DNA of 64,000 nt from Acidobacteriota bacterium (GTDB taxonomy: Bacteria > Acidobacteriota > Terriglobia > Acidiferrales > UBA7541): assembly GCA_003223245.1 (NCBI GenBank), contig QHYI01000121.1:1-64000 (forward strand), in the 5' to 3' direction. The notes beneath the pieces are model-generated. The model worked only from the letters and a program-made list of their open reading frames with translations, did not search any database and was not told where the DNA came from. The stretch's first letter is position 1. Each line of letters starts with the position of its first letter. The position numbers and the translations under genes are program-made. Below are positions 6,322-60,644 of the stretch, one piece after another.

Positions 6322-6752
6322 CCGAATGGCCAATCGCATTTTTTGCCTTGAAGGCTTGGACTATTCTTACTTTCGGCGACTCGTTTCAGCGAGATTTTCG
6401 CAGCCTCGTTTCTGCCTTCTCCACTTCGTTTTACTTGCCCTGTGATCTGATCTCCTTGGACTTGCAAATCAAAGTGCATCGAGCCTTCACCACCGAGTGA
6501 GACGTCAAACGTTAGTCTGTTGCCGTCGATCTTCCCGCCTTCAAATGAGTGCTGCTCACTCTCATTGGGCCCCGCACTTCCAGTCAGCCTGTTTCCATCT
6601 TGTTTGAGAATCACATATGCCGACTTGGAGTCGTTTTCCCCTTCCATTTGCAGAGTTCCCGACCACTTGCCGGTAACATCGGTGGCGCACAGCGCAGTGG
6701 CCGAAATTAGTACGCCCAGCAAAAGGCCCGTAAAGAAAGATGGCTTTCTCAT
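6276..6752 (-). CDS. Small secreted beta-rich protein of unknown function
   Basis: 158 residues with a clear signal peptide (RKPSFFTGLLLGVLISATALCA) and a beta-rich body: DVTGKWSGTLQMEG, YVILKQDGNRLTGSAG, GGKIDGNRLTFDV. This architecture resembles many short exported proteins annotated only as hypothetical in Acidobacteriota. The ATG at 6752 is chosen because AAGGAG lies 7 bp upstream and the signal peptide begins there. The last 35 residues are less convincing and overlap the end of the dinB remnant on the other strand by 46 bp, suggesting that the native stop was replaced. Function unknown. Confidence 0.65.
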   Translation of the reverse strand: MRKPSFFTGLLLGVLISATALCATDVTGKWSGTLQMEGENDSKSAYVILKQDGNRLTGSAGPNESEQHSFEGGKIDGNRLTFDVSLGGEGSMHFDLQVQGDQITGQVKRSGEGRNEAAKISLKRVAESKNSPSLQGKKCDWPFGYSKRAGWADTASGS

Positions 6753-6902
6753 CGATGCTCTCCTTGAGTTGAAGTTGTGAACTGCTCGCTCTCTCGGTTG
6801 CCAAATCCTGCTCCGGCAAAACGCAAATGCTGATCGTCTGCAAAGAAAAACAGATATGGTCAACGTTGCTCCCTGGATCTTTGCCGGCTGGGGTGCAAAT
6901 AT

Positions 6903-48673: not shown

Positions 48674-49045
48674 ATGCCCGGCCATGCGGGCCAAGAAGGG
48701 ATGACGTTTCCGCGTGTGGCGCGGTTGGTCAGGCGCGGCGAATTTGACGCCGTCTATCGCGCCGGCAAGCGCCGCTCGAGTTCCCACTTCACAGTTTTCT
48801 TACGCGCCAACGAATTGCCACAGAGCCGCTTTGGCGTCAGCATTAAGAAAGCCCTCGGCGGCGCGGTGGTGCGCAATCGCATCCGGCGGCGCTTGCGAGA
48901 AATCGTGCGCCACCACCGGAGGGAAATTCCGGCGGGATGGGACATCGTGATTCACCCGAAAAGCGTGGCGGCCAAAGCGCCGTTTGCGGCATTGACCGCG
49001 GATTTGCTGCAACTGCTGCAAAGCGCAGCGCAGGCAGGGAAGTGA
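48674..49045 (+). CDS. rnpA: Ribonuclease P protein component
   Basis: 123 residues. FPRVARLVRRGEFDAVYRAG, FTVFLRANELPQSRFGVSI and the signature RNRIRRRLREIVRHH, the basic helix that binds P RNA. It assists the catalytic RNA in 5' maturation of tRNAs. The ATG at 48674 has GGGAA about 9 bp upstream; ATG 48701 (TFPRVARLV) is the alternative. It lies 16 bp behind rpmH and overlaps yidD by 4 bp (GTGA). Confidence 0.92.
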   Translation: MPGHAGQEGMTFPRVARLVRRGEFDAVYRAGKRRSSSHFTVFLRANELPQSRFGVSIKKALGGAVVRNRIRRRLREIVRHHRREIPAGWDIVIHPKSVAAKAPFAALTADLLQLLQSAAQAGK

Positions 49046-49416
49046 AAGTAGAAAAGATGACTTTGTCCCAGAAAGAAGAGGACACGCTAAAGCCTGTCCC
49101 TGTGAGCCTCCCGGTGCGAATCGCGCTCTTGGCACTGCGAATTTACAAAGCGTATTTGTCCCTCCTGTTTGCGGGGAACTGCCGGTTTCACCCCACCTGC
49201 TCGCAGTATGCCTACGAGGCGATTGAGCGCTTCGGAGTGGGGCGGGGGATTTGGCTGGGAATGAAGCGTCTTCTGCGGTGCCATCCGCTGTCGCGGAAGT
49301 TTGGTTACGACCCCGTCCCCGAGAGTTGGGACGAAACCGTCGACACGGCGAATCGCACCGCGACCGCAAGCCTCGCGACGCGCTCCTCTGAGATTCCGCG
49401 TGAGGTGCATTTTTGA
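49042..49416 (+). CDS. yidD: Membrane protein insertion efficiency factor
   Basis: 124 residues from a GTG overlapping the rnpA stop. Core motifs ALRIYKAYLSLLFAGNCRF, HPTCSQYAYEAIERFG and RLLRCHPLSRKFGYDPVP define YidD, with the conserved Cys residues. It is a small amphipathic membrane-associated helper of YidC. An ATG at 49057 is an alternative start. The C-terminal 35 residues are a low-complexity extension. The stop overlaps the TTG of yidC (TTGA). Confidence 0.9.
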   Translation: MKVEKMTLSQKEEDTLKPVPVSLPVRIALLALRIYKAYLSLLFAGNCRFHPTCSQYAYEAIERFGVGRGIWLGMKRLLRCHPLSRKFGYDPVPESWDETVDTANRTATASLATRSSEIPREVHF

Positions 49417-51191
49417 ACGTTCCGGGACAAAAGGACAAGTTCACGCCAGAATTGCGGATTCTGGTGGCGTCGCTTCTGTCGATTTTAGTGATCCTGGTTT
49501 GGGCGAAATATTATGGGCCGAAGCCGCCGGTTCAGCGGCCACACGCGAACCGGCCCGCCGAGACCGCTCCCGCCACTTCTGGTCCCGCCGTGGCCACTTC
49601 CCCCACGGAAAAGGGTTCGCAAGCTCCTTCACCTCCGACCACCGTCGCTGCTGCACCGCCCATGAACGTTCCGCGCATTAGCGATTCTCAAGAACGCACA
49701 ATAACCATCGAGAACAACCTCTATCGCGTGGAAATCTCCAATCAAGGCGCGGTGGTCGAAAGCTGGAAGCTCAAGAGATATCTGGATGATGCCAAGCCGC
49801 CGCGCGTCCTGGACGTGGTGCACCCGGAGGCTTCGCAGCAAACCGGCGGCTGGCCGTTTGCGTTGATCCTCGATGACGAGCAGCTGCAAAACGCGGCGAA
49901 CGGCGGGCTCTATCAAGTTTCTGCTACAGCAAGCAGTTTGCAGGCCCCCGCCGACTTGCAATTCGTCTGGAGCAACGGCCAACTCGAAGTCACAAAACAC
50001 TTTCACTTCGATCACAGCTACGTGGTCCGCGTGGAAACGTCCGCGAAGCTGAACGGGAGCCCCATAAGGGCAGGGCTTGCCTGGCTGGGCGGATTTGGGG
50101 ATTGCACGGTGGCGAATCCCGCTCCGATCGAAACGGTGACCACCTATTATGGCGAAGGCGGAAAGATCACGAACTACTCGTACAAGAAACTCGAAGGCCT
50201 GGACAAGTGGGGCCCCGGCTTGTGGCAAGGTGGAAAAGATTTTGTGGGCATCGAGGACCGTTATTTTACGGCCGCATTCTTGCCGCCGAACGGCGCGGCC
50301 CCGGGGACCCTCGAGACGCGCTACTGGAAGGCTCCGCAGACCGTTAAGGTCTGCGAGCAAGCCACTCCCGAAGCCGTGCCGGAAGTCGCCGTGGCCTCCT
50401 CCGCAAGCCCGCTCGTAGTGCGCGCCTACGTTGGGCCAAAAGATTACGACGATTTGAAAAAGATGAACCCGCCGCTGCAGGGGCTGGTCAATTTCGGATG
50501 GCTGGAGTTCATCGCCGAGCCGCTGTTCCACGGCTTGAAGTGGCTGCACAACTACATTCCGAATTGGGGCTGGGCGATTGTCGTACTCACGCTGGTCTTG
50601 AACATGCTGCTTTTCCCGCTGCGCATCTCCGGCTACAAAACGACCCTGAAAATGCAGCGCGTAGCGCCGGAAATCAAAGCCATCCAGGAAAAATACAAGA
50701 AATATTCCATGCGCGATCCGCGCAAGGCGGAGATGAACAAGGAAGTGATGGCCATTTACAGCCGCGAGGGCATCAATCCCGTGGGCGGCTGTGTCCCGCA
50801 GTTGCTGCAACTTCCGATTTGGTACGGGCTGTACCGCGCGCTGCAAGGCACGATTGAATTGCGCCATGCACCATGGTTCGGCTGGATTACCGATTTGTCG
50901 GCAAAGGATCCTTATTACATTCTGCCTCTGGCGATGGGCTTGTCCATGTACCTGGTGTCCAAGATGACGCCCATGACTGCTGCTACCGACCCGCAACAGC
51001 AAGCCATGATGAAAATCATGCCCATCGGTATGGCCGCGTTGTTTATGGTTATTCCCTATCCCAGCGGCCTGGCGGTGTATATTCTCACCAGTAGCTTGGT
51101 CGGGATCGGGCAGCAGTGGTATTTGAACCGGAAGCATCCGCTGCCGCCTCCGGGCAAGCCCGCGCGCGCGAAGAGTGGGAAGAAGCCGTAG
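49413..51191 (+). CDS. yidC: Membrane protein insertase YidC
   Basis: 592 residues from a TTG coupled to yidD. N-terminal anchor (LRILVASLLSILVILVWA), Pro/Ala-rich linker, periplasmic P1 beta-supersandwich (RTITIENNLYRVEISNQGA to about residue 340), then the five-helix insertase core: WAIVVLTLVLNMLLFPLRI with the conserved groove Arg, EINPVGGC-like INPVGGCVPQLLQLPIWYG, YILPLAMGLSMYLVSKM and PYPSGLAVYILTSSLVG. A basic C-terminus follows. It inserts and folds inner-membrane proteins with or without SecYEG. Confidence 0.95.
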   Translation: MNVPGQKDKFTPELRILVASLLSILVILVWAKYYGPKPPVQRPHANRPAETAPATSGPAVATSPTEKGSQAPSPPTTVAAAPPMNVPRISDSQERTITIENNLYRVEISNQGAVVESWKLKRYLDDAKPPRVLDVVHPEASQQTGGWPFALILDDEQLQNAANGGLYQVSATASSLQAPADLQFVWSNGQLEVTKHFHFDHSYVVRVETSAKLNGSPIRAGLAWLGGFGDCTVANPAPIETVTTYYGEGGKITNYSYKKLEGLDKWGPGLWQGGKDFVGIEDRYFTAAFLPPNGAAPGTLETRYWKAPQTVKVCEQATPEAVPEVAVASSASPLVVRAYVGPKDYDDLKKMNPPLQGLVNFGWLEFIAEPLFHGLKWLHNYIPNWGWAIVVLTLVLNMLLFPLRISGYKTTLKMQRVAPEIKAIQEKYKKYSMRDPRKAEMNKEVMAIYSREGINPVGGCVPQLLQLPIWYGLYRALQGTIELRHAPWFGWITDLSAKDPYYILPLAMGLSMYLVSKMTPMTAATDPQQQAMMKIMPIGMAALFMVIPYPSGLAVYILTSSLVGIGQQWYLNRKHPLPPPGKPARAKSGKKP

Positions 51192-51347
51192 TCTTCGCGT
51201 TTTGGCATTTTTGATTCGAACCCGCAGTGGTTATAGCGCGGGGCGAAGTCTCCGGGAGCCCTGCGGTTTTTTCTGTAACCGATTTTTCTGTACGCTGCTC
51301 GCTCGAAGTTGCCGTAACGTAGTTTTGAGTCTTAAATTAATTGCCCT

Positions 51348-51878
51348 ATGCCCCTGGAACTCATCCGAGACGGCAAGCTCGACCGGCAGGCCACCGCCGA
51401 CGCGCTGCGGCAATTTCTCGAAAACATCGTGCGCTCTTCCGGCCTCGAATTGAAAGTGAACGTGCGCGCGGTTCCAACCGATGGCTCTGCAACCGAAGGC
51501 CAAGCAGAAGTGCTCGCCGACCTCGACGGACGCGACAAAGAAATCCTGTTGGAACGTGGCGCCGAGGTTTTGAAAGCGTTAGAACATCTCGCCTTCAAGG
51601 CCTTGCGGTTGGAGCCTGTGTATCACGAAAAAATTCATATCGACTGCGGCGGCTACCGCGCGCTGCGTTTCGAGGAATTAAAAATGACCGCGCGCGTCGC
51701 CGCGGAACGCGTGCAGCAAACCAAACAACCGTTCCCCTTGAATCCCATGTCCTCACGCGAACGTCGCATCGTGCACTTAGCTGTAAAAGACATTCCTGGC
51801 GTGCGCACGCAAAGCGTGGGCCTGGGCGAGGAGCGCCAAGTCGTTATTCATCCGGCCGACTCCCAGCCCAAGAAATAG
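51348..51878 (+). CDS. khpB: RNA-binding protein KhpB/Jag (KH and R3H domains)
   Basis: 176 residues. KH-like domain around residues 20-100 (RQFLENIVRSSGLELKVNV, LLERGAEVLKALEHLAFKAL, IHIDCGGYRALRFEELK) and a C-terminal R3H domain (PLNPMSSRERRIVHLAV, with Arg-x3-His, then VRTQSVGLGEERQVVI). The Jag-N domain is absent. With KhpA it binds RNA and affects cell division in other bacteria. Last gene of the rpmH operon, 156 bp after yidC; a terminator follows. Confidence 0.92.
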   Translation: MPLELIRDGKLDRQATADALRQFLENIVRSSGLELKVNVRAVPTDGSATEGQAEVLADLDGRDKEILLERGAEVLKALEHLAFKALRLEPVYHEKIHIDCGGYRALRFEELKMTARVAAERVQQTKQPFPLNPMSSRERRIVHLAVKDIPGVRTQSVGLGEERQVVIHPADSQPKK

Positions 51879-51917
51879 ATGCACTAGATGGATTCATTGC
51901 CGGTGGCGTGCACCTAT

Positions 51918-51946
51918 GGGGTCCGCCATCTGGGGCGGCCCCTTTT
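51918..51946 (+). terminator. Intrinsic terminator of the rpmH-khpB operon
   Basis: GGGG-T-CCGCC pairs with GGCGGCCCC (one bulged T) and is followed by TTTT, 40 bp after the khpB stop. Confidence 0.75.
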
Positions 51947-51952
51947 GCCCGT

Positions 51953-53188
51953 CTAGTGTGTCGCCCAGCCTTGCGAAAGCACGGCGCCAGTCGCGCTAAA
52001 GCGCACGCGATAGGTAAACGCCGGAGGGCGGCCGGTCGTGGTGCGCAAGAAGCGCACGTCGGAAATCTCCACCACAGCTTCCCGGCCTTCTGTGTGAAAG
52101 CGCGTCACGGGAAACCGCGCGAACCACAACACTTTCTGCACTTCCGGCAAGCGCCTGGCTTCTTCAATGTAGGAATTCGGCGCCGCATCGGGATAAAAGC
52201 GATGCTCATGCGCCAGCAACTCCGTGTCACTTGCCGACCTATCGCCCAGATCCATGCGCAGCTCGTAGACACCATGCTCGCCCCGCACCAACCCATCCCA
52301 ATGCCAAAGCGACGGGGGAAGCGGGAGCGCGCCAATTGCTTCCACTTGTAAATGATCGAGTTGCGCAAACTTCTCGATGCGCACAAGCGCCACGCGATGG
52401 GCAAACAACGTCAGCGCCACGTACACCAGTGAAGCGGCAAAGCCCGCGCGATTCCATCTGCGGTACGGAATCTTCAGGCCCCAGCCGCGAAGAGCCGGCA
52501 AGAAAAAAATTGCCGTGAAAATAATCATCCCTGCTAGCACGGTGGGCCCTGAAATTGGCGCGCCGGCCGCCTCGCCGATGCGGGCAACGAGTACTGGCAC
52601 GGGCAAGAACACCAGCCACACACCTGCCACCCGGTTTTTCATTTTCTCCGGACGTGAATAGACCCACGCAAGCAATTGCGGCACAAGCAGAATCGCGGTA
52701 AACGTGAAATCCACGATGAACAGCAGGTCCCAGGCGGGGCGTGACCATTGGATCGGTGACCAGATCATGGTCCCAAACGAAGTGGCCAGATCAAGCAAAA
52801 TGTGGCTCAGGATGCCCACTCCGTAGATCGCGCTCAACATGGCGAACGATGGCGCCTCCCATTTGCGCCACTTACACAATGCCTGAGTGATTCCGGCAAG
52901 TAACAGCGCCCACAGGGGCAGCATCACCAGCGAATGCGTGATGCTGCGGTGCCAGGTGACGATGAGCAGCCGGTCGTGCGAAAAAATGTCGCGAAGCACG
53001 TCGGAGTCCGGAAAAATCGCGCCCAGCATCAGCGCCCACGTGACGATCCGTCCACGCGAGGGTTTAAACCTAACGCCGGGCTTCAGCCCGGCATCTGGGC
53101 TTGTCGCTTGCAAGCCAAACATGTCCGCACCACGAAAAACCGCCTTGCCGACCAGCGCGCCCGCGATGCCGTGTGTGATGGTGTCCAT
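51953..53188 (-). CDS. YdjM-type membrane-bound metal-dependent hydrolase
   Basis: 411 residues. The N-terminal domain is typical of the family (DTITHGIAGALVGKAVF, GAIFPDSDVLRDIFSHDRL, TWHRSITHSLVMLPLWALLL, YGVGILSHILLDLATSFG), with the His/Asp residues thought to bind metal. Seven or so membrane helices reach to about residue 265, and a soluble C-terminal domain follows. Between residues 25 and 45 (FGLQATSPDAGLKPGVRF) the protein carries a stretch encoded by a palindromic repeat (53075-53092), absent from the family as I know it. Function is unproven; relatives are linked to phospholipid or LexA-regulated processes. Confidence 0.85.
   Translation of the reverse strand: MDTITHGIAGALVGKAVFRGADMFGLQATSPDAGLKPGVRFKPSRGRIVTWALMLGAIFPDSDVLRDIFSHDRLLIVTWHRSITHSLVMLPLWALLLAGITQALCKWRKWEAPSFAMLSAIYGVGILSHILLDLATSFGTMIWSPIQWSRPAWDLLFIVDFTFTAILLVPQLLAWVYSRPEKMKNRVAGVWLVFLPVPVLVARIGEAAGAPISGPTVLAGMIIFTAIFFLPALRGWGLKIPYRRWNRAGFAASLVYVALTLFAHRVALVRIEKFAQLDHLQVEAIGALPLPPSLWHWDGLVRGEHGVYELRMDLGDRSASDTELLAHEHRFYPDAAPNSYIEEARRLPEVQKVLWFARFPVTRFHTEGREAVVEISDVRFLRTTTGRPPAFTYRVRFSATGAVLSQGWATH
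53075..53092. repeat. Palindrome with TTCA (TGAA) loop inside ydjM
   Basis: GCCGGGC-TTCA-GCCCGGC, a 7-bp perfect stem, lies in frame inside the ydjM coding sequence and encodes part of DAGLKPGV. The flanks (TTTAAACCTAAC) look like part of the inserted unit. Confidence 0.65.
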
Positions 53189-53253
53189 GCTCAGAGTTTA
53201 CCGGAAACCGCGGACACTCCTTGGTCTGTCCGAGGGAGTCTCATTGCGACGAA

Positions 53254-54333
53254 TCATTGCACGAAGATGAGGGGTTTGCCCTTGGGAATGGCCACGCCGA
53301 TGCGGCGTGCGGCAACGCCGTGCTTATCCAAAACCGCTAGAGCCTCGTTGCCAAACTCGGGTGCCACGGCGATCAGCAAACCGCCGGAGGTTTGCGGATC
53401 GAAGAGCAGGTCGCGAAACTCCTGAGGCACGGCTTCCGCGAAGCCGACGCAATCGCCCAGAAATTCGCGATTATTTTTCAGGCCGCCGGGGAGGAAGCCT
53501 TCGCGCGCGGCTTTTTCTGCACCGGGCAAGTAGCGGATCGCGGTGTAATCGATTTGCATGGACACCGCTTCGACGCCTCGCTTGCGATCTCCCAGCGCCA
53601 TTTCCCGCGCATGCCCGAGCAGCCCAAATCCGGTAATGTCTGTAACCGCGTAAATCGGTTCGGCCGATGCTGCTTTGTCCTGCAGTTCCAGCAGCGCTTC
53701 CGACGCGGCGCGGTTCAGCTCCGACATGGAAGCCACTGCCGCAGCGAGGTCCCTGGCCGACGCAGCTTCTTTCTTGAGCGCCGTCGAGAGCACTCCGGTC
53801 CCCAGCGCTTTCGTCAGCAGCAGCACGTCGCCCGTATGCACGCCCACATTGCGCCAAACGCGCTGCGGATGAATCAGTCCGGTGACCGCGTAGCCGAATT
53901 GAATGTCGTCGTTGCGAATTGAGTGCCCGCCGATGACGCTGCATTGGGCTTCGGCCATTTTGGAATGGCCGCCGCTAAGAATCTGCTCGAGGATTTCTGG
54001 TTCGCCTTTGTCGGGAAAGCCCACAATGGACAACGCGGAAATTGGCTTGCCGCCCATGGCGTAAATGTCGCTCAAAGAATTGGCCGCGGCGATTTGACCG
54101 AAGGTGTGCGGATCATCGACGATCGGCGTGAAGAAATCGACACTCTGCACTAGCGCCATTTCCGGGGCGAGTTGATACACCCCGGCGTCGTCGTTGGTTT
54201 CGAATCCAACGAGCACGTTAGGATCATTGGCTCGCGGCAAGCCGCGCAAAACGGAGTCCAGCAAACTGGGACTGAGCTTCGCCGCTCAACCCGCTGCCTT
54301 GACCATCGCCGTCAGTTTCACGGTATGCGTCAA
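53254..54333 (-). CDS. selD: Selenide, water dikinase, probably a selenoprotein
   Basis: SelD makes selenophosphate from selenide and ATP. Reading from TTG 54333 (AGAGGTG just upstream) gives 359 residues: THTVKLTAMVKAAG, then TGA at 54286-54288 (residue 16), then AAKLSPSLLDSVLRGLP. Canonical SelD has Cys or Sec exactly here, with the catalytic Lys three residues on (here Lys19). The body is complete: VGFETNDDAGVYQL, VQSVDFFTPIVDDP, ANSLSDIYAMGG, GGHSIRNDDIQFGYAVTGL, TDITGFGLLGHAREMA and DPQTSGGLLIAV. A stem-loop begins 12 bases after the TGA (54255-54273). A start at TTG 54264 would remove the active site. Divergent from the CPBP gene, with a hydrolase relic between them. Confidence 0.9.
54255..54273 (-). 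promoter_or_regulatory. Candidate bacterial SECIS hairpin
   Basis: In the mRNA, AGUCC-C-AG and CU-GGACU form a 7-bp stem with one bulged C and a UUUG loop, starting 12 bases after the UGA. Bacterial SECIS elements place such an apical hairpin at about this distance, inside the coding region. The fold was made by eye. Confidence 0.55.
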
Positions 54334-54352
54334 GCCGCACCTCTGCTTTCCC

Positions 54353-54372
54353 GGGCAGGCGTCAGCCTGTCC
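54353..54372. repeat. Palindrome with GTCA (TGAC) loop
   Basis: GGGCAGGC-GTCA-GCCTGTCC: 8-bp stem with one G-T pair, immediately upstream of selD on its coding strand. Same loop type as the other dispersed palindromes. Confidence 0.55.
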
Positions 54373-54422
54373 GTATCGCGCCTCGATTATAGCGAGGCTC
54401 AGCGCTTTGCGCTTGCAATTGG

Positions 54423-54735
54423 ATCACTTTACGGTAAGGAAGCAATGGACAGATCGGCTGCCGCTGCTCCTCCCATACTGCTCCCAACCACCGACACTTT
54501 TGCGCCCGTCTTTCGCAGATAGCGGAGGGCCGCCAATACATCTAAATGCAATGGCGCGTCCATAGCATCGGAGCCGCCCGGGCCTTTTCGACTTGGCACT
54601 TGGCATAACCGCGGAAATCGAGCGCGGGCGTACGCACGCTGCAACTGCACCATCGCTGGCCGCAAAAGCGTGTCGGTCGTAGAGAACAATAAGGAACAAG
54701 AGGCTTGGCGGTCGCCCTACTTGCGCGTTGCATAA
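54423..54735 (-). pseudogene. Alpha/beta hydrolase, multiply frameshifted remnant
   Basis: Three frames must be joined to follow one protein: FLIVLYDRHAFAASDG, then VRTPALDFRGYAKCQV (compare the DFRGYGKS strand of serine hydrolases), then DAPLHLDVLAALRYLRKTG and VSVVGSSMGGAAAADLSI with the nucleophile elbow GSSMGG. Sequence ends shortly after the nucleophile, so the Asp and His are lost. It lies between selD and the CPBP gene. Confidence 0.6.
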
Positions 54736-54756
54736 GGAAAGTGTTCTTATCTGCGG

Positions 54757-55488
54757 ATGCCCTGGGACTTCTGGCTGATCTTCTTTGCTCTAGGCGTGCT
54801 CTTGCCCTGGCGCGGCCGGGCGCACATGAAGAAGCTGCTCGGTATGCCGCACGTCAGCTCAATGGAGCGGCTGGTGCTCTACGCCTCAACCATCGCCTTC
54901 CAATGGCTTTCTGTCGCCGTCGTCGGGTGGCGCGCCTGGGTCCACGGTTACACCCCTCCACAATTGGGCTTGGTATTTCACAGCCGAACCAGCTTGCTTG
55001 TTGCCGGCGTCGTCGGAGCAGTGGTCATTGGTTTTCTCCAGTGGCTCATCCTGCGCCGCGTGTCGCGCATCCCGGTCGGGTCTCGCGGCCCACTGCAAGC
55101 CATCGCCGAGCGCATCTTTCCCCGATCCACCGTCGAGTTGCTTCCTTACCTGGCCCTTGCCTTTACAGCGGGTCTTTGCGAAGAATTTCTCTATCGCGGA
55201 TTTGTCATGGCTGCTCTTGCCCGTGCAGGCCTGGGAGCTTGGCTCGTCGTTCTGGTCTCTTCGGTCCTTTTTGGGCTGGCCCATAGCTATCAAGGGCGGG
55301 GTGGCATGGTGATGACATTCCTGGCTGGCTTGGTCCTCGGGGTGAGCCGCCTGACGTACAATAGTTTAGTGCCCGCCATTTTCTGGCATAGCGCCCTTGA
55401 CGTCGTGGCGGGAGTGGCGGGGAGCCGGTATCTAAAGCGCAACACGGTGGGGCCCCGGCAGAACGCTTTGCATTTTCATAGCGATTAA
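54757..55488 (+). CDS. CPBP family intramembrane metalloprotease
   Basis: 243 residues, about seven membrane helices. The glutamic-type/CAAX protease motifs are all visible: motif 1 GLCEEFLYRGF (EExxxR), motif 2 FGLAHSYQG (FxxxH) and motif 3 FWHSALDVV (HxxxD). Bacterial members cleave or protect membrane proteins and some give bacteriocin self-immunity. rsmG starts 12 bp after its stop, so the two are probably cotranscribed. Confidence 0.88.
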   Translation: MPWDFWLIFFALGVLLPWRGRAHMKKLLGMPHVSSMERLVLYASTIAFQWLSVAVVGWRAWVHGYTPPQLGLVFHSRTSLLVAGVVGAVVIGFLQWLILRRVSRIPVGSRGPLQAIAERIFPRSTVELLPYLALAFTAGLCEEFLYRGFVMAALARAGLGAWLVVLVSSVLFGLAHSYQGRGGMVMTFLAGLVLGVSRLTYNSLVPAIFWHSALDVVAGVAGSRYLKRNTVGPRQNALHFHSD

Positions 55489-55499
55489 CAGTAACTATA

Positions 55500-56141
55500 A
55501 TGACAACACCCAGTCCAACTCTTCCCATGGCGGTGATTCGCCGTGCCCTCGAAGAGTTCCAATTGCCGGCCTATGACGACCAAGTCCTGCAGATTCAGCA
55601 GTATATAAAGATCTTGGCGGCTTGGAATGACAAAGTGAACCTGACCGCCATTCGTGATCCGCTGGATATCCTCTACCGGCACTTCGGCGAGAGCATGTTT
55701 GCGGGCATCTCGGTGCCGATCGAGCGAGGTCGGCTGGCCGACGCGGGTACTGGTGCCGGCTTTCCAGGCCTTCCGCTTAAAATCATGCGTCCAGGACTGC
55801 AAGTCTTTCTCATTGAATCGAGCATCAAGAAGGCGACGTTTCTTGCCGAGGTCATTCGGGAATTGGGCCTTAAAGAAGCTCAAGTCCTCGTTCGTCGCTA
55901 CGAAGAGCTGGGCGAGGAGATTGCGCCCCTCGATTATGTTTGCTCGCGCGCTTTGGGGGAATATAGCAAGTTCCTTGAGTGGGCGCATTGCGAGGCGCTT
56001 GCGGCAAAAGAAGTTGTCTTGTGGATAAGCGCAAACGATCTCGAAGAAGTCCAGAAGATCCAAACGTGGGAATGGCGCGAACCCATTCCGGTGCCTAATT
56101 CTATGCGCCGCGTTCTACTCATGGGCACAAAGAAGCCTTAG
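55500..56141 (+). CDS. rsmG: 16S rRNA (guanine-N7) methyltransferase G
   Basis: 213 residues. SAM-binding motif LADAGTGAGFPGLPLKI, upstream KVNLTAIRDPLDILYRHFGE typical of RsmG, then QVFLIESSIKKATFLAEVI and VCSRALGEYSKFLEWA. It methylates N7 of G527 of 16S rRNA (E. coli numbering); loss gives low-level streptomycin resistance in other bacteria. It stands in the usual place before parA-parB, but the mnmE and mnmG genes that often precede it are missing here. Confidence 0.93.
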   Translation: MTTPSPTLPMAVIRRALEEFQLPAYDDQVLQIQQYIKILAAWNDKVNLTAIRDPLDILYRHFGESMFAGISVPIERGRLADAGTGAGFPGLPLKIMRPGLQVFLIESSIKKATFLAEVIRELGLKEAQVLVRRYEELGEEIAPLDYVCSRALGEYSKFLEWAHCEALAAKEVVLWISANDLEEVQKIQTWEWREPIPVPNSMRRVLLMGTKKP

Positions 56142-56225
56142 TTTAAATTGGCGCGTGATTTGGGTTCTTTGTAATCCAGGAATCCACGGCAAGCGTTTCT
56201 CTCAGGGAGCGGTTATTCGGGACCA

Positions 56226-56241
56226 TGTTCCACGTGGAACA
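56226..56241. promoter_or_regulatory. parS site 1
   Basis: TGTTCCACGTGGAACA, a perfect 16-bp palindrome (18 bp with flanking A and T), matching the near-universal chromosomal parS recognised by ParB. Confidence 0.92.
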
Positions 56242-56298
56242 TTGTCTTCGGTTCGACTCCTCGATCCGTCGGCGAGTTCGTCCCCCTGGACGCGGTTG

Positions 56299-56314
56299 TG
56301 TTCCACGTGGAACA
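56299..56314. promoter_or_regulatory. parS site 2
   Basis: TGTTCCACGTGGAACA, identical to site 1 and 73 bp from it. Confidence 0.92.
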
Positions 56315-56418
56315 TTCACGCCACGCTATCGAACCACAACCCGGAACTGAGCAAGCCCAGGCCGCTCGCAAGATTCGTGGGGCCGACTTTTCGTTTGACC
56401 ATCGAGTCCCTGGGCAAG

Positions 56419-56434
56419 TGTTCCACGTGGAACA
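56419..56434. promoter_or_regulatory. parS site 3
   Basis: TGTTCCACGTGGAACA; symmetry extends to 20 bp (56417-56436). Confidence 0.92.
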
Positions 56435-56540
56435 CTCGCACTTGTCAAGGTCTCCCGTAGCACGCACTTTTCAGGTGGCACAAGCGGAAACTTCCGGAGG
56501 CAACCGCTCCTCACAGACGGTCGACGCTAGCGGCGGAACC

Positions 56541-56590
56541 TGTCATTCCGGGGAGCGCAGCCGCAGCGAGGCCAAGCGACGAGGAATCCC
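56541..56590. repeat. Possible dispersed repeat of the GTCATTCC...GAGGAATCCC type
   Basis: GTCATTCCGGGGAGCGCAGC through GAGGAATCCC has inverted ends (CATTCC / GGAATC) and resembles a widespread intergenic repeat. A related start GTCATTCCGAATCG occurs at about 60669, beside the palindrome after purD. Confidence 0.4.
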
Positions 56591-56635
56591 GGTTTGATGG
56601 TTAAAGCTGGAGGCTCCCTTAAGACTCGTCCGCAG

Positions 56636-56651
56636 TGTTCCACGTGAAACA
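56636..56651. promoter_or_regulatory. parS site 4
   Basis: TGTTCCACGTGAAACA, one half-site base different from sites 1-3 and closer to the TGTTTCACGTGAAACA consensus. Confidence 0.9.
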
Positions 56652-56751
56652 ATCGAAGAGCCCGTCAAGCTTTCCTAACTCACTTGGCGTGCCTCCCGAA
56701 AAGCGTCTGCCTCTCTTGTCAAATGTCAAAGGTTTTTCACCCTGGCTGTTT

Positions 56752-56767
56752 TGTTCCACGTGAAACA
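56752..56767. promoter_or_regulatory. parS site 5
   Basis: TGTTCCACGTGAAACA, 50 bp before the parA start; a ParB complex here could affect parAB expression. An ATG overlapping its end (56767) is not the parA start. Confidence 0.9.
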
Positions 56768-56817
56768 TGTTGCAACGCAGATCATCCTTTGTTAGATTTT
56801 CGACTAACGGGGGCTCC

Positions 56818-57624
56818 GTGGCACGAATCATCGCGATTGCCAATCAAAAAGGGGGCGTAGGAAAAACCACCACGGCTGTCAATCTCTCTGCATGCCTCGC
56901 CGCTGCTGGCCAACCCACTCTGCTTGTTGACTGCGACTCCCAAGCCAACACAACAGCCGCCATTGGCTTCGCCAAAGACCCCTCACGCCGCACGCTCTAT
57001 CACGCGCTGATTCTCAGCGAGCCTTTTGAAAGGATCATCCAGAAATCCCAAGTGGAAGGACTCGACCTTATCCCTGCCGACAAAAATCTTGCCGGTGCGG
57101 CCGTCGAACTAGTCAATGCGCAAGAGCGCGAGTACCGCCTGCGAGGCGCACTCAAGCTTTTGGAAGAGAAATACAACTTCATTATACTAGACTGTCCTCC
57201 CGCCCTCGATTTGCTGACGTTGAATGCCTTGGTTGCTGCAGGCTCGGTGTTGGTTCCGATTCAGTGCGAATATCTGGCCTTGGAAGGCGTCTCCGAATTG
57301 CTGGATACGCTGATGCGCATTCGCCGTACGCTGAACCCCACCCTCGAAATCGAAGGCATTCTCCTCACGATGTTCGACGAACGCACAACGCTTTCGCGGC
57401 AAGTGGCGAATGACCTGCGCACCTTCTTTGGGCAGCAGGTTTTCAAGAGCATCATTCCGCGCAATGTTCGATTGGCAGAAGCACCCAGTTTCGGCAAACC
57501 CATCATTCTTTACGACCCCAACAGCAGAGGGGCAGAGGGCTACACGCATCTTGCAAAAGAGGTGATCCAAAATGGCGAGAAACGCACTGGGACGGGGACT
57601 CGGAGCGCTCATTCGGGAGCTTGA
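56818..57624 (+). CDS. parA: Chromosome partitioning ATPase ParA (Soj)
   Basis: 268 residues from a GTG with GGGGG 5 bp upstream. ARIIAIANQKGGVGKTTTAV contains the deviant Walker A (residues 11-18), followed by LLVDCDSQANTTAAIG (Walker A'), FIILDCPPALDLLTLNAL (Walker B) and KSIIPRNVRLAEAPSFGKP. ParA forms ATP-dependent dimers on DNA and moves ParB-parS complexes. An upstream ATG (56767) lies in parS site 5 and adds 17 residues foreign to the family. Its 3' end overlaps parB by 53 bp. Confidence 0.95.
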   Translation: MARIIAIANQKGGVGKTTTAVNLSACLAAAGQPTLLVDCDSQANTTAAIGFAKDPSRRTLYHALILSEPFERIIQKSQVEGLDLIPADKNLAGAAVELVNAQEREYRLRGALKLLEEKYNFIILDCPPALDLLTLNALVAAGSVLVPIQCEYLALEGVSELLDTLMRIRRTLNPTLEIEGILLTMFDERTTLSRQVANDLRTFFGQQVFKSIIPRNVRLAEAPSFGKPIILYDPNSRGAEGYTHLAKEVIQNGEKRTGTGTRSAHSGA

Positions 57625-58507
57625 AGGCAAGAAGTCCGAACCAGCCCCGGCATCCGTGCAACCCCAACCTGTCACGACCGGCGGCTCTGCAGCGGCCGCC
57701 ATGCCCGCGCGCCAACCCATGCAGGCCGGTCCGCAGGAGCTTGACATCGACCTGATTGAGCCCAGTCCTTATCAGCCGCGCACGAAGTTTCATGAACAGG
57801 GACTCGATGAACTGGCGCGCTCGATCAAAACCAGCGGCATCATCCAACCTTTGGTGGTTCGCCCCATCGGTTCGCGGTTCCAACTGATCGCTGGCGAGCG
57901 CCGTTGGCGCGCCGCGCAGCGTGCCGGCCTGAACAAAGTTTCGGCCATCGTCAAACAGGTTCCCGATGAGCTCGCGCTCGAGATGACGTTGGTTGAAAAC
58001 ATCCAGCGCGAAGACCTGAATGCCATCGAAGCCGCGCGAGCCTTCGAGCGCTTGATGGACGAATTTCACATGACCCAGGAGCAGGTTGCCGAACGCACAG
58101 GCAAGGTCCGCGCTACAGTAGCCAACGCCGTTCGGCTGCTTAAACTTGAGAAACAAATTCAAGACTGGATTGAGGAGGGGAAGCTCACGGCTGGCCACGG
58201 CCGCGCCCTCCTTGCTGTTCCGGAGCAGCAGTTGCGCATGCGCTATGCACATCGCGCCTCCCGCGGAGCTTTGACCGTCCGCCAAATCGAGAAACTGGCG
58301 GCGCGCCGACTCCAGGGAAAATCGCCTCAACCCCCGCCTACCGCCCATCTGGATCCCAACATCCGCTCTGCCGTCGAGGATTTGCAGCGGCACCTTGGAA
58401 CCAAGATTACCTTGCGCATGAAGACCAAGATGCGCCCTGGACAACTGGTGCTCGAGTATTACGACGACAAGCAGCTGATGGGTCTTTACGATCGTTTAAT
58501 GAAGTAG
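57572..58507 (+). CDS. parB: Chromosome partitioning protein ParB (Spo0J)
   Basis: 311 residues. N-terminal ParA-interaction tail ARNALGRGLGALIREL, CTPase/clamp domain with PYQPRTKFHEQGLDELARSI and GERRWRAAQRAGL, ENIQREDLNAIEAARAF, a helix-turn-helix (MTQEQVAERTGKVRATVANA) that reads parS, and a C-terminal dimer domain (GTKITLRMKTKMRPG). The start lies inside parA, preceded by GAGGTGATC, a long match to the anti-SD of 16S rRNA, which should give strong reinitiation. Confidence 0.95.
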   Translation: MARNALGRGLGALIRELEGKKSEPAPASVQPQPVTTGGSAAAAMPARQPMQAGPQELDIDLIEPSPYQPRTKFHEQGLDELARSIKTSGIIQPLVVRPIGSRFQLIAGERRWRAAQRAGLNKVSAIVKQVPDELALEMTLVENIQREDLNAIEAARAFERLMDEFHMTQEQVAERTGKVRATVANAVRLLKLEKQIQDWIEEGKLTAGHGRALLAVPEQQLRMRYAHRASRGALTVRQIEKLAARRLQGKSPQPPPTAHLDPNIRSAVEDLQRHLGTKITLRMKTKMRPGQLVLEYYDDKQLMGLYDRLMK

Positions 58508-58691
58508 TAGCTTGTTGCAGCCATGCACAATACCTAGGATGAAGTAGGCTTGGGAGATCGCTCGAAAGATTGCCTGCGCAACACTGTCCGTTCGAGCAGC
58601 TAATCGTTCGACACCACAATTTTCTGTTGCGTTTGACTTGTTTGCGTGCCCGACTCAAAGTAGAAGTGTCTCAAAATTGGGAGAGCTCGCT

Positions 58692-59114
58692 ATGTCCTGG
58701 AAGTGGCCCGCCGCCGACAATAATGGCGCGACAAACAGTGAAGAATGGACCGGCTTCATCGATCAGGGCGTCACCCTGGAAGGAACCCTAACGGTCAAGG
58801 GCACTTTCCGTATCGATGGCAACGTCAAGGGCAACATCATTTCCGAGCAGACCGTGATTCTCGGAGACGGCGCAAAGGTCGAAGGCCAGATCGAAGGCAA
58901 CCGCGTGGTGATTTCGGGCCGCTTCGATGGCGTTATCTTCGCCAGAGGCCGCGTCGAGATTCAAGCCAAAGGCGTTGTAACCGGCGAAGTCCATGCGCCC
59001 TGCATGGTGATTGATCCCGGCGGCATCTTCGACGGGCGCTGCCACATGCTGGCGTCGTCTGACACCACATCTGCTTCTATCACCATTCCGATTCGTGCCG
59101 CCAGCGGTTCCTGA
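58692..59114 (+). CDS. Bactofilin
   Basis: 140 residues. The central part is a right-handed beta-helix of the bactofilin type: GTLTVKGTFRIDGNVKGNI, SEQTVILGDGAKVEGQIEGN, VVISGRFDGVIFARGRVEIQ, KGVVTGEVHAPCMVIDPGG, with short unordered tails. ATG 58692 has GGGAGAG upstream. Bactofilins polymerise without nucleotides into cytoskeletal filaments; in Myxococcus they hold ParABS components at the poles, which fits the position right behind parAB. Confidence 0.92.
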   Translation: MSWKWPAADNNGATNSEEWTGFIDQGVTLEGTLTVKGTFRIDGNVKGNIISEQTVILGDGAKVEGQIEGNRVVISGRFDGVIFARGRVEIQAKGVVTGEVHAPCMVIDPGGIFDGRCHMLASSDTTSASITIPIRAASGS

Positions 59115-59297
59115 TTTGCCTTCGAAGCTTGCTCTTACTCCCGGCTTACCTTCCTGGCGCGCCTAAGGATATTACCGCCCGTTCCACGCCTACTCCTAAA
59201 TAAGTTAGGGGTGCGTGCGCTTCAGGGACCTTTCTCCGTACTGGTCTTCTCGGGCTGATTTGACCGCTACAACTGGCGCCTCAATTTTCTCCTCGCA

Positions 59298-59326
59298 TTG
59301 ACACAGGCGGCAGCGCCGTCTATCGT
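59298..59326 (+). promoter_or_regulatory. Promoter of purD
   Basis: Consensus -35 TTGACA (59298-59303), 17-bp spacer, -10 TATCGT (59321-59326); start predicted near 59333, about 22 bases before the purD ATG. Confidence 0.65.
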
Positions 59327-59354
59327 TCCAAAGTCATTGCCACGAGGATGGGGG

Positions 59355-60644
59355 ATGAAGATCTTAGTGATTGGCGGCGGCGGGCGTGAGCACGCGCTGG
59401 TGTGGAAGCTGAGGCAAAGCCCGCGCGCACAGAAAATCTGGTGCGCCCCCGGGAACGGCGGCATCGCCGCGGACGCCGAATGCGTGCCGGTCGCAGCGGC
59501 CGACGTGGGTGCGCTTGTGTCGTTCGCAGAAAAGGTTCAGCCCGACTTGACCGTCGTAGGACCGGAACTGCCGCTCGTGAATGGTATCGGCGACGCCTTC
59601 CGCGAGCGCCGTTGGGCCATCGTGGGGCCAGCCGAGCACGCGGCTCAGCTCGAAGGCAGCAAGATTTTCTCGAAAGAATTCCTGCAGCGGCACGGCATCC
59701 CGACAGCGAAACCCTATGGCTCCTTTGACTCTGCAGAAGGTGCATACAGCGCGCTTCCGAACGTCACTCTTCCCGTGGTCCTCAAAGCGGATGGCTTGTG
59801 TGGCGGCAAGGGCGTCCTGGTCGCGCAGGATTTCAACGAGGCGCACGATTTCCTCAACCGCGTCATGGAGAAAAACGAACTCGGCACCGCCGGAAACCGC
59901 ATCCTGTTCGAAGAGGCCCTGGAAGGCGAAGAGTTGTCGTTCATCATTGTGACGGACGGAAAGACTTACGCGCCCTTGGTCCCGACCCGGGATCACAAGC
60001 GAGTGTATGACGGAAACCAGGGCCCGAACACTGGAGGCATGGGCGCCTATTCGACCGATGATCTTCTGCCCGAGCCGCTTCGCAATGCCATCATCTCGAC
60101 CATCGTGGAACCGACCCTGGCAGGTCTCGCCGCGGACGGAATTCCCTACCAAGGTTTTCTCTACATCGGCTTGATGCTGACGCCCTCCGGCCCCCAGGTC
60201 CTGGAGTTCAATTGTCGCCTTGGCGATCCCGAGACGCAGGCCATTGTGGCGCGAATGGACTTCGACCTAGCCGAAGTGCTCCAGGACGTGGCGTCGGGCA
60301 GTTTGAAACCGTCCAAATTGCATTGGAAGCCCGGCGCGAGCGTCTGCGTGGTGCTGGCGTCCGGAGGCTACCCGCGGAAGTTCGAATCGGGAAAACGCAT
60401 CGAAGGACTACCTGCTGCGGAGCAAATCACCGGCGTGAAGGTTCTCCACGCTGGGACCAAGCGCGTCGGCGATGAGCTTCTGACGGGCGGCGGGCGCGTG
60501 CTCGGAGTGACAGCGACGGGTCCAACGCTCGGTGCGGCTCTTGGCTCAGCCTATGCGGCCGCCGAAAAGATTCACTTCGAACGGCTGCACTACCGCAAAG
60601 ACATCGGCCGCCACAGTAACACCCTGCGGGCAAGCGGCCACTGA
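59355..60644 (+). CDS. purD: Phosphoribosylamine--glycine ligase
   Basis: 429 residues. KILVIGGGGREHALVWKL (N-domain), VVGPELPLVNGIGDAF, the ATP-grasp part with LPVVLKADGLCGGKGVLVA and LFEEALEGEELSFIIVTDG, DHKRVYDGNQGPNTGGMGAY, VLEFNCRLGDPETQAIVARM and the C-domain LTGGGRVLGVTATG. It makes GAR in step 2 of purine synthesis. ATG 59355 is preferred over the longer frame because the promoter overlaps the latter and the family starts with KILVIG. Stands alone; a palindrome follows. Confidence 0.95.
   Translation: MKILVIGGGGREHALVWKLRQSPRAQKIWCAPGNGGIAADAECVPVAAADVGALVSFAEKVQPDLTVVGPELPLVNGIGDAFRERRWAIVGPAEHAAQLEGSKIFSKEFLQRHGIPTAKPYGSFDSAEGAYSALPNVTLPVVLKADGLCGGKGVLVAQDFNEAHDFLNRVMEKNELGTAGNRILFEEALEGEELSFIIVTDGKTYAPLVPTRDHKRVYDGNQGPNTGGMGAYSTDDLLPEPLRNAIISTIVEPTLAGLAADGIPYQGFLYIGLMLTPSGPQVLEFNCRLGDPETQAIVARMDFDLAEVLQDVASGSLKPSKLHWKPGASVCVVLASGGYPRKFESGKRIEGLPAAEQITGVKVLHAGTKRVGDELLTGGGRVLGVTATGPTLGAALGSAYAAAEKIHFERLHYRKDIGRHSNTLRASGH

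Follow-up and report, generated by a model that had tools for sequence, protein, structure and literature searches.

Does a TGA codon that crosses the selD frame of an uncultured acidobacterium, at a place that corresponds to a cysteine (Cys) of a solved SelD, encode selenocysteine (Sec), or is it a stop or an error? We addressed this question for one window (the whole stretch of DNA analysed here, 64,000 nucleotides, from contig QHYI01000121.1 of assembly GCA_003223245.1). An initial annotation, made from the letters alone, had proposed that selD is probably a selenoprotein whose catalytic residue is encoded by the in-frame TGA; family assignment, alignment, genome machinery, and the hairpins of relatives all support this proposal.

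SelD and FdhA are given as the most widespread bacterial selenoproteins in one survey (PMC1794560), which further states that FdhA and SelD account for most of the Sec-to-Cys conversions detected, that SECIS-like structures persist downstream of Cys codons, that Acidobacteria had three selenoprotein families and four selenoproteins in the 2006 count, and that the selenouridine trait was absent from the Acidobacteria sequenced by then. SelD is also listed among the main bacterial selenoproteins in two reviews (PMC9312934, PMC13188914). Sec and Cys forms of SelD across prokaryotes are treated in PMC4561486, and PMC12013277 describes a predictor tried on an acidobacterium with three known selenoproteins. 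In a literature search on acidobacteria and selenium, no paper among the titles listed concerned SelD of this acidobacterial group.

Materials and methods

The window's own assembly comprises 6.3 Mb in 237 contigs and is 95.8% complete. Relatives were searched in 101 genomes, own included; 17 of these had no covered SelD site and were kept apart. A bacterial SECIS element is described in PMC13188914 as having a small apical loop with G (often then G or U) in one of its first two positions, located 16-37 nt after the UGA. As applied here, the rule carried two additions of our own choosing, namely an energy limit of -5 kcal/mol and a looser reading of the loop in which the closing pair is counted. 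Hairpins were compared across 98 acidobacterial loci (L021-L061, L131-L187), 97 of which cover the site; once identical and short rows were dropped, 83 distinct full stretches of 66 nt remained (58 TGA and 25 Cys). A quick, unrooted tree was computed from 79 rows, L035, L170, L185, and L187 being left out of the 83 as too short.

Results and discussion

The selD gene and its in-frame TGA

The features considered at this locus are as follows.

53254..54333, minus strand: selD, encoding a selenide, water dikinase (selenophosphate synthetase) of 359 residues, with Sec as residue 16; TTG start, TGA stop; assigned through TIGR00476, PRK00943, and solved SelD 3u0o
54286..54288, minus strand: in-frame TGA (UGA), codon 16, read as selenocysteine on the basis of the aligned codons of relatives
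54277..54279, minus strand: Lys19, three residues past Sec, facing the GCGCK Lys of 3u0o
54255..54273, minus strand: bacterial SECIS-like hairpin, starting 12 nt past the UGA, with a bulged C and its loop at 54265-54262 (20 nt past the UGA)
54331..54333, minus strand: TTG start codon of selD, aligned with TTG in 17/17 close TGA rows
54338..54344, minus strand: Shine-Dalgarno sequence AGAGGTG, four bases ahead of TTG 54333

Translation from 54333 down to 53254 (minus strand) gives LTHTVKLTAMVKAAG-TGA-AAKLSP and onward to the terminal TGA, with a single internal TGA. The initial annotation had reported VKLTAMVKAAG, TGA, and AAKLSP in one frame upstream of an apparent start at TTG 54264, and re-reading of the strand returned the same. 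The mechanical standard-code open reading frame (ORF) does begin at TTG 54264 and encodes 336 aa, 23 residues fewer than full selD; as anticipated, standard calling truncates the gene, and the reading of selD is corrected by restoring these 23 codons and with them the Sec residue.

The read-through product is a member of the SelD family along its entire length, with profile matches to TIGR00476 (351.9 bits; cut-off 125) and PRK00943 (327.8 bits; cut-off 299) and an alignment to 3u0o, which we take to be the SelD of E. coli, over residues 3-351 (E 5.6e-76). In this alignment the TGA codon faces the first Cys of GCGCK, a residue that, together with the Lys that follows, we assume to be catalytic in SelD. 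A Lys three residues after the Sec/Cys site, as found in Sec-containing SelD, is present in the product, and the expectation that this is the Cys/Sec place of SelD with Lys three residues on was borne out by the TGA opposite the 3u0o Cys and by the aligned Lys19.

A good Shine-Dalgarno sequence, AGAGGTG, had been proposed ahead of TTG 54333 and lies at 54344-54338. Both the start and its AGAGGTG are supported by conservation: every one of the close TGA rows (at least 66% identical; 17 distinct) has an aligned TTG that is preceded by a GAGG-like motif (loose pattern, 15-nt stretch).

The surroundings of selD (window positions 48674-60644) comprise RNase P protein, YidC, GidB, ParA-like, ParB, and GARS (purD-like) genes. 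Such a set of genes is often found near the replication origin. A family scan of the nine neighbouring ORFs of selD detected no sel genes.

Codon usage at the Sec site in relatives

A selD match was found in 92 of the 101 genomes (own included). The site was covered in 84, with TGA in 61, a Cys codon in 23, and nothing else, as tallied by hand; of the eight matched genomes without a covered site, four have only weak matches (E between about 2.5e-4 and 4.5e-4) and the other four only partial matches missing the site. Counted locus by locus, the codon at the site is TGA in 55, TGC in 44, and TGT in 10 rows of a first set (109 covered of 110 loci, L027 being left out because its site is not covered), and TGA in 42, TGC in 12, and TGT in 3 rows of a further set (57/57 covered); the two sets overlap partly, some genes being represented in both through different collections. 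No codon other than TGA, TGC, or TGT was present in these 109 + 57 covered rows, as expected if relatives carry a Cys or Sec codon at the site, and relatives lacking such a codon, which would have spoken against the proposal, did not occur in the rows examined. Among the best 80 of 565 loci, the five nearest named ones are Acidobacteria assemblies that are 75-88% identical, four of them labelled gp2.

These rows bear directly on a rival reading in which the TGA is a genuine stop or results from a sequencing error, and selD either encodes just the 336-aa protein that begins at TTG 54264 or is a pseudogene. The standard code does yield that ORF, but the shorter form is without the segment that holds the Cys/Sec site and Lys19, the residues ahead of the TGA are conserved among relatives, as is the start signal, and the 84 covered genomes have only TGA or a Cys codon at the site. 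Recurrence of the same TGA in 61 of the 84 genomes makes a sequencing error very unlikely, and we regard this explanation as a whole as highly improbable.

Three loci, L169 (G007:C56), L168 (G039:C20), and L183 (G084:C258), represent a second, divergent lineage of SelD with about 40-42% identity. In G039 and G084, tRNA-Sec and SelB matches lie no more than about 2 kb from the divergent selD, and G007 carries the divergent L169 plus an ordinary TGA selD.

Selenocysteine machinery in the genome

The proposal entails that the organism makes Sec, and its own genome encodes the Sec-decoding trait: tRNA-Sec (selC), SelA, and SelB, the three components that had been named for checking, were all located, so the absence of selB or tRNA-Sec that could have overturned the proposal did not occur. 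The tRNA-Sec at C156 scores 64.4 bits (family cut-off 47; next match 46.3) and was confirmed by ARAGORN with anticodon TCA. A match to the tRNA-Sec model is weak evidence when taken alone, because the model also matched in 14/14 control genomes and exceeded its cut-off in 5/14; the assignment therefore rests on the score gap and on ARAGORN, which detected no tRNA within the window. The other tRNA-Sec matches in this genome (30.8-46.3 bits) were discounted, as the model responds to ordinary tRNAs in all 14 controls. SelB at C180 (641-aa ORF) scores 356.9 bits (cut-off 242.25), its match spanning positions 1-578 of 581, and SelA at C22 scores 563.8 bits (cut-off 267.9); these cut-offs were exceeded in 2/14 and 1/14 controls, respectively. 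A second SelB match (C48:31-1161; 196.8 bits, below cut-off) was rejected as a second Sec elongation factor, the ORF being EF-Tu followed by ribosomal protein genes, as we name them from their translations. Taken together, the machinery indicates that this acidobacterium makes selenocysteine. Since its genome has no match to TIGR03167, the tRNA 2-selenouridine synthase (ybbB/SelU), SelD most likely serves selenocysteine synthesis.

Reading of the UGA through a general reassignment or a suppressor (e.g. as Trp), and not as Sec, would suit a frame that is open under any code with TGA as a residue, but is the least probable explanation, outweighed by a selD that itself ends in TGA, neighbours that are ordinary table-11 ORFs with family matches, a site that in the rows of relatives examined is Cys and never Trp, and the presence of tRNA-Sec, SelA, and SelB together in the genome.

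About 1.6 kb downstream of the tRNA-Sec at C156 (L189) lie a cysteine-synthase-like and then an ornithine-cyclodeaminase-like gene, names that we presume from the translations. Paired tRNA-Sec matches above 60 bits lie close together in two relatives (G032:C465:6472-6566 and 6731-6825; G010:C2:1112064-1112158 and 1115713-1115807).

A SECIS-like hairpin downstream of the UGA

The initial annotation had also described a bulged hairpin starting 12 bases after the UGA, as in bacterial SECIS elements. Its position and its bulged C are upheld, but taken alone the hairpin is no better than chance. Folded by itself and compared with shuffles, the hairpin sequence is not significantly stable (z of -0.67, -1.39, and -0.88 for lengths of 50, 76, and 31 nt); 38 of 200 synonymous recodings are equally or more stable (energy at -0.91 standard deviations), and 172 of 1000 satisfy the SECIS rule. 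The predicted loop is UUUG, and the G of the rule is present only as GUUUGC, with the closing G-C pair counted in. This weakness of the single hairpin is a point in favour of a genuine stop or an error. A scan with Rfam at gathering thresholds returned no match in the window, a result that says little on the hairpin.

The acidobacterial rows considered as a set give a different picture. The rule is satisfied by 52/58 TGA rows (37 strictly and 15, window selD among them, with the closing pair counted), compared to a mean of 13.1 and a maximum of 21 when the set was recoded synonymously 100 times. The Cys rows satisfy it in 1/25 cases loosely and 0/25 strictly, versus a mean of 2.8 and a maximum of 7 in 100 recoded sets. 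All four core pairs are formed in 50/58 TGA rows but in only 4/25 Cys rows, and at 60% identity or more to the window SelD in 29/29 TGA versus 3/19 Cys rows. Fold energy is more than one standard deviation below that of synonymous recodings in 51/58 TGA rows, window selD not being among the 51, versus 4/25 Cys rows. The six TGA rows of 58 that fail the rule (L163, L164, L165, L167, L168, and L169) are divergent without exception, none being more than 45% identical. When the rule was applied unchanged, and at an unchanged position, to rows from outside Acidobacteria, only 9/24 TGA rows and 3/44 Cys rows satisfied it; the rule is thus not a general detector. These comparisons argue that the hairpin is kept in TGA genes beyond coding constraint as a set, not for the window gene alone; the window hairpin thus appears convincing only through its relatives.

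Exchange of Sec and Cys among acidobacterial SelD

The tree requires at least eight Sec/Cys changes, six of them forced by well-supported branches, although the tree tool warned of long branches (L158, L166, L169, and L182) and of a doubtful join (L183 with L169). One change falls between close relatives of the same genus, L047 and L050. Direction cannot be read from these changes because the tree is unrooted. In four of the six Sec/Cys pairs that are independent and supported, the hairpin goes with Sec; no pair shows the opposite, and the other two show no difference (sign test p 0.125, with too few pairs).

Machinery in relatives was scored with a tRNA-Sec limit of 58 bits, set after seeing the list, which 80/101 genomes pass (83/101 by the Rfam cut-off). 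At this limit tRNA-Sec is present in 54/61 TGA-selD genomes and 19/23 Cys-SelD genomes, and SelB exceeds its cut-off in 60/61 and 21/23, respectively. The TGA-selD genomes without tRNA-Sec at this limit are G029, G040, G046, G052, G064, G087, and G099, two of which are 97% complete; assembly gaps or divergent tRNAs are likely, because 6/7 keep a SelB over cut-off. A formate-dehydrogenase-like match with one internal TGA, located anywhere in the match, was counted by hand in at least 16 of the 23 Cys-SelD genomes, and TGA-bearing formate dehydrogenases of this kind would explain why the machinery is kept.

We lean towards the view that, among these acidobacterial relatives, SelD has switched between Sec and Cys on six or more occasions, including within one genus; that tRNA-Sec and SelB are retained in the majority of genomes with a Cys-SelD, where they presumably serve further selenoproteins (e.g. 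formate dehydrogenases); and that the hairpin is gone from most Cys versions, with a few relics (e.g. L050, L181). On this view, the clade would form a natural series of SECIS decay after exchange. The comparison yields a group of close relatives, some with Sec-SelD and others with Cys-SelD, in which the machinery is mostly retained.

Formate-dehydrogenase-like selenoprotein candidates

Two formate-dehydrogenase-like genes of the genome carry one in-frame TGA each, NRT-U-HAPS at C123 and ARV-U-HGPT at C189, at what we take to be the usual Sec places of formate dehydrogenases. Both matches are below the curated cut-off of 666.25 (649.1 at C123, without positions 1-49, and 180.6 at C189). These two proteins most likely also receive Sec.

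The C123 gene (L191, from 1396 on the plus strand; C123:4806-6674) encodes a TGA-bearing catalytic subunit without the N-terminal iron-sulphur segment (family positions 1-49). A 377-aa protein downstream (L196:526-1656; C123:8351-9481), presumably NuoG/HoxU-like, carries the segment TICPYCGVGC...GNLCIKGRFG at its C-terminal end, after sequence that we take to be NuoE- and NuoF-like. The split formate dehydrogenase is recurring among the genomes compared: a match starting at family positions 41-53 and extending to 672 with one TGA was counted by hand in at least 20 of 101 genomes plus two partial cases, and an unbroken match to almost the whole 377-aa protein was present in 10/61 genomes (own included), two with internal stops. 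A literature search for a split formate dehydrogenase found no paper on such an arrangement, as judged by title. The C189 gene (L192; C189:26700-) encodes a long formate-dehydrogenase-like subunit in a 1076-residue frame with its TGA in ARV-U-HGPTVSSLGPTFGR, and many relatives among the matches listed have a comparably long frame that contains one TGA.

Proposed function and comparison with known SelD systems

The selD of this uncultured acidobacterium, whose named close relatives are labelled gp2 (subdivision 2), is almost certainly a normal selenoprotein-type SelD with UGA codon 16 read as Sec; Sec insertion and enzyme activity are what we infer from sequence, homology, alignment, genome machinery, and the comparative hairpin signal. 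Translation would begin at TTG 54333, and when the ribosome reaches the UGA at codon 16, hairpin-bound SelB would bring Sec-tRNA-Sec, a delivery by which the UGA is proposed to be read as selenocysteine. Sec would take the place of the Cys of E. coli SelD that we presume to be catalytic. The enzyme would form selenophosphate from selenide and ATP, and SelA would turn selenophosphate into Sec on tRNA-Sec, the resulting Sec-tRNA-Sec feeding SelD itself and, most likely, the two formate-dehydrogenase-like proteins.

At the Sec/Cys segment, the window selD has Sec-Ala-Ala-Lys where E. coli SelD (3u0o) has Cys-Gly-Cys-Lys. The Cys-SelD of close acidobacterial relatives (e.g. L036, L041, L050) is about 67-68% identical with the same protein start, but has TGC/TGT where the window selD has TGA, and the non-acidobacterial SelD loci among the best 80 of 565 confirmed are 42-51% identical (best segment). 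Compared to Sec-containing SelD (SPS2), the family, the UGA at the Cys-equivalent site, the hairpin directly downstream, and the Sec machinery in the genome are all the same, with no substantial difference; a Sec-containing SelD accompanied by Sec machinery is well known, so the finding, although correct, is an ordinary one.
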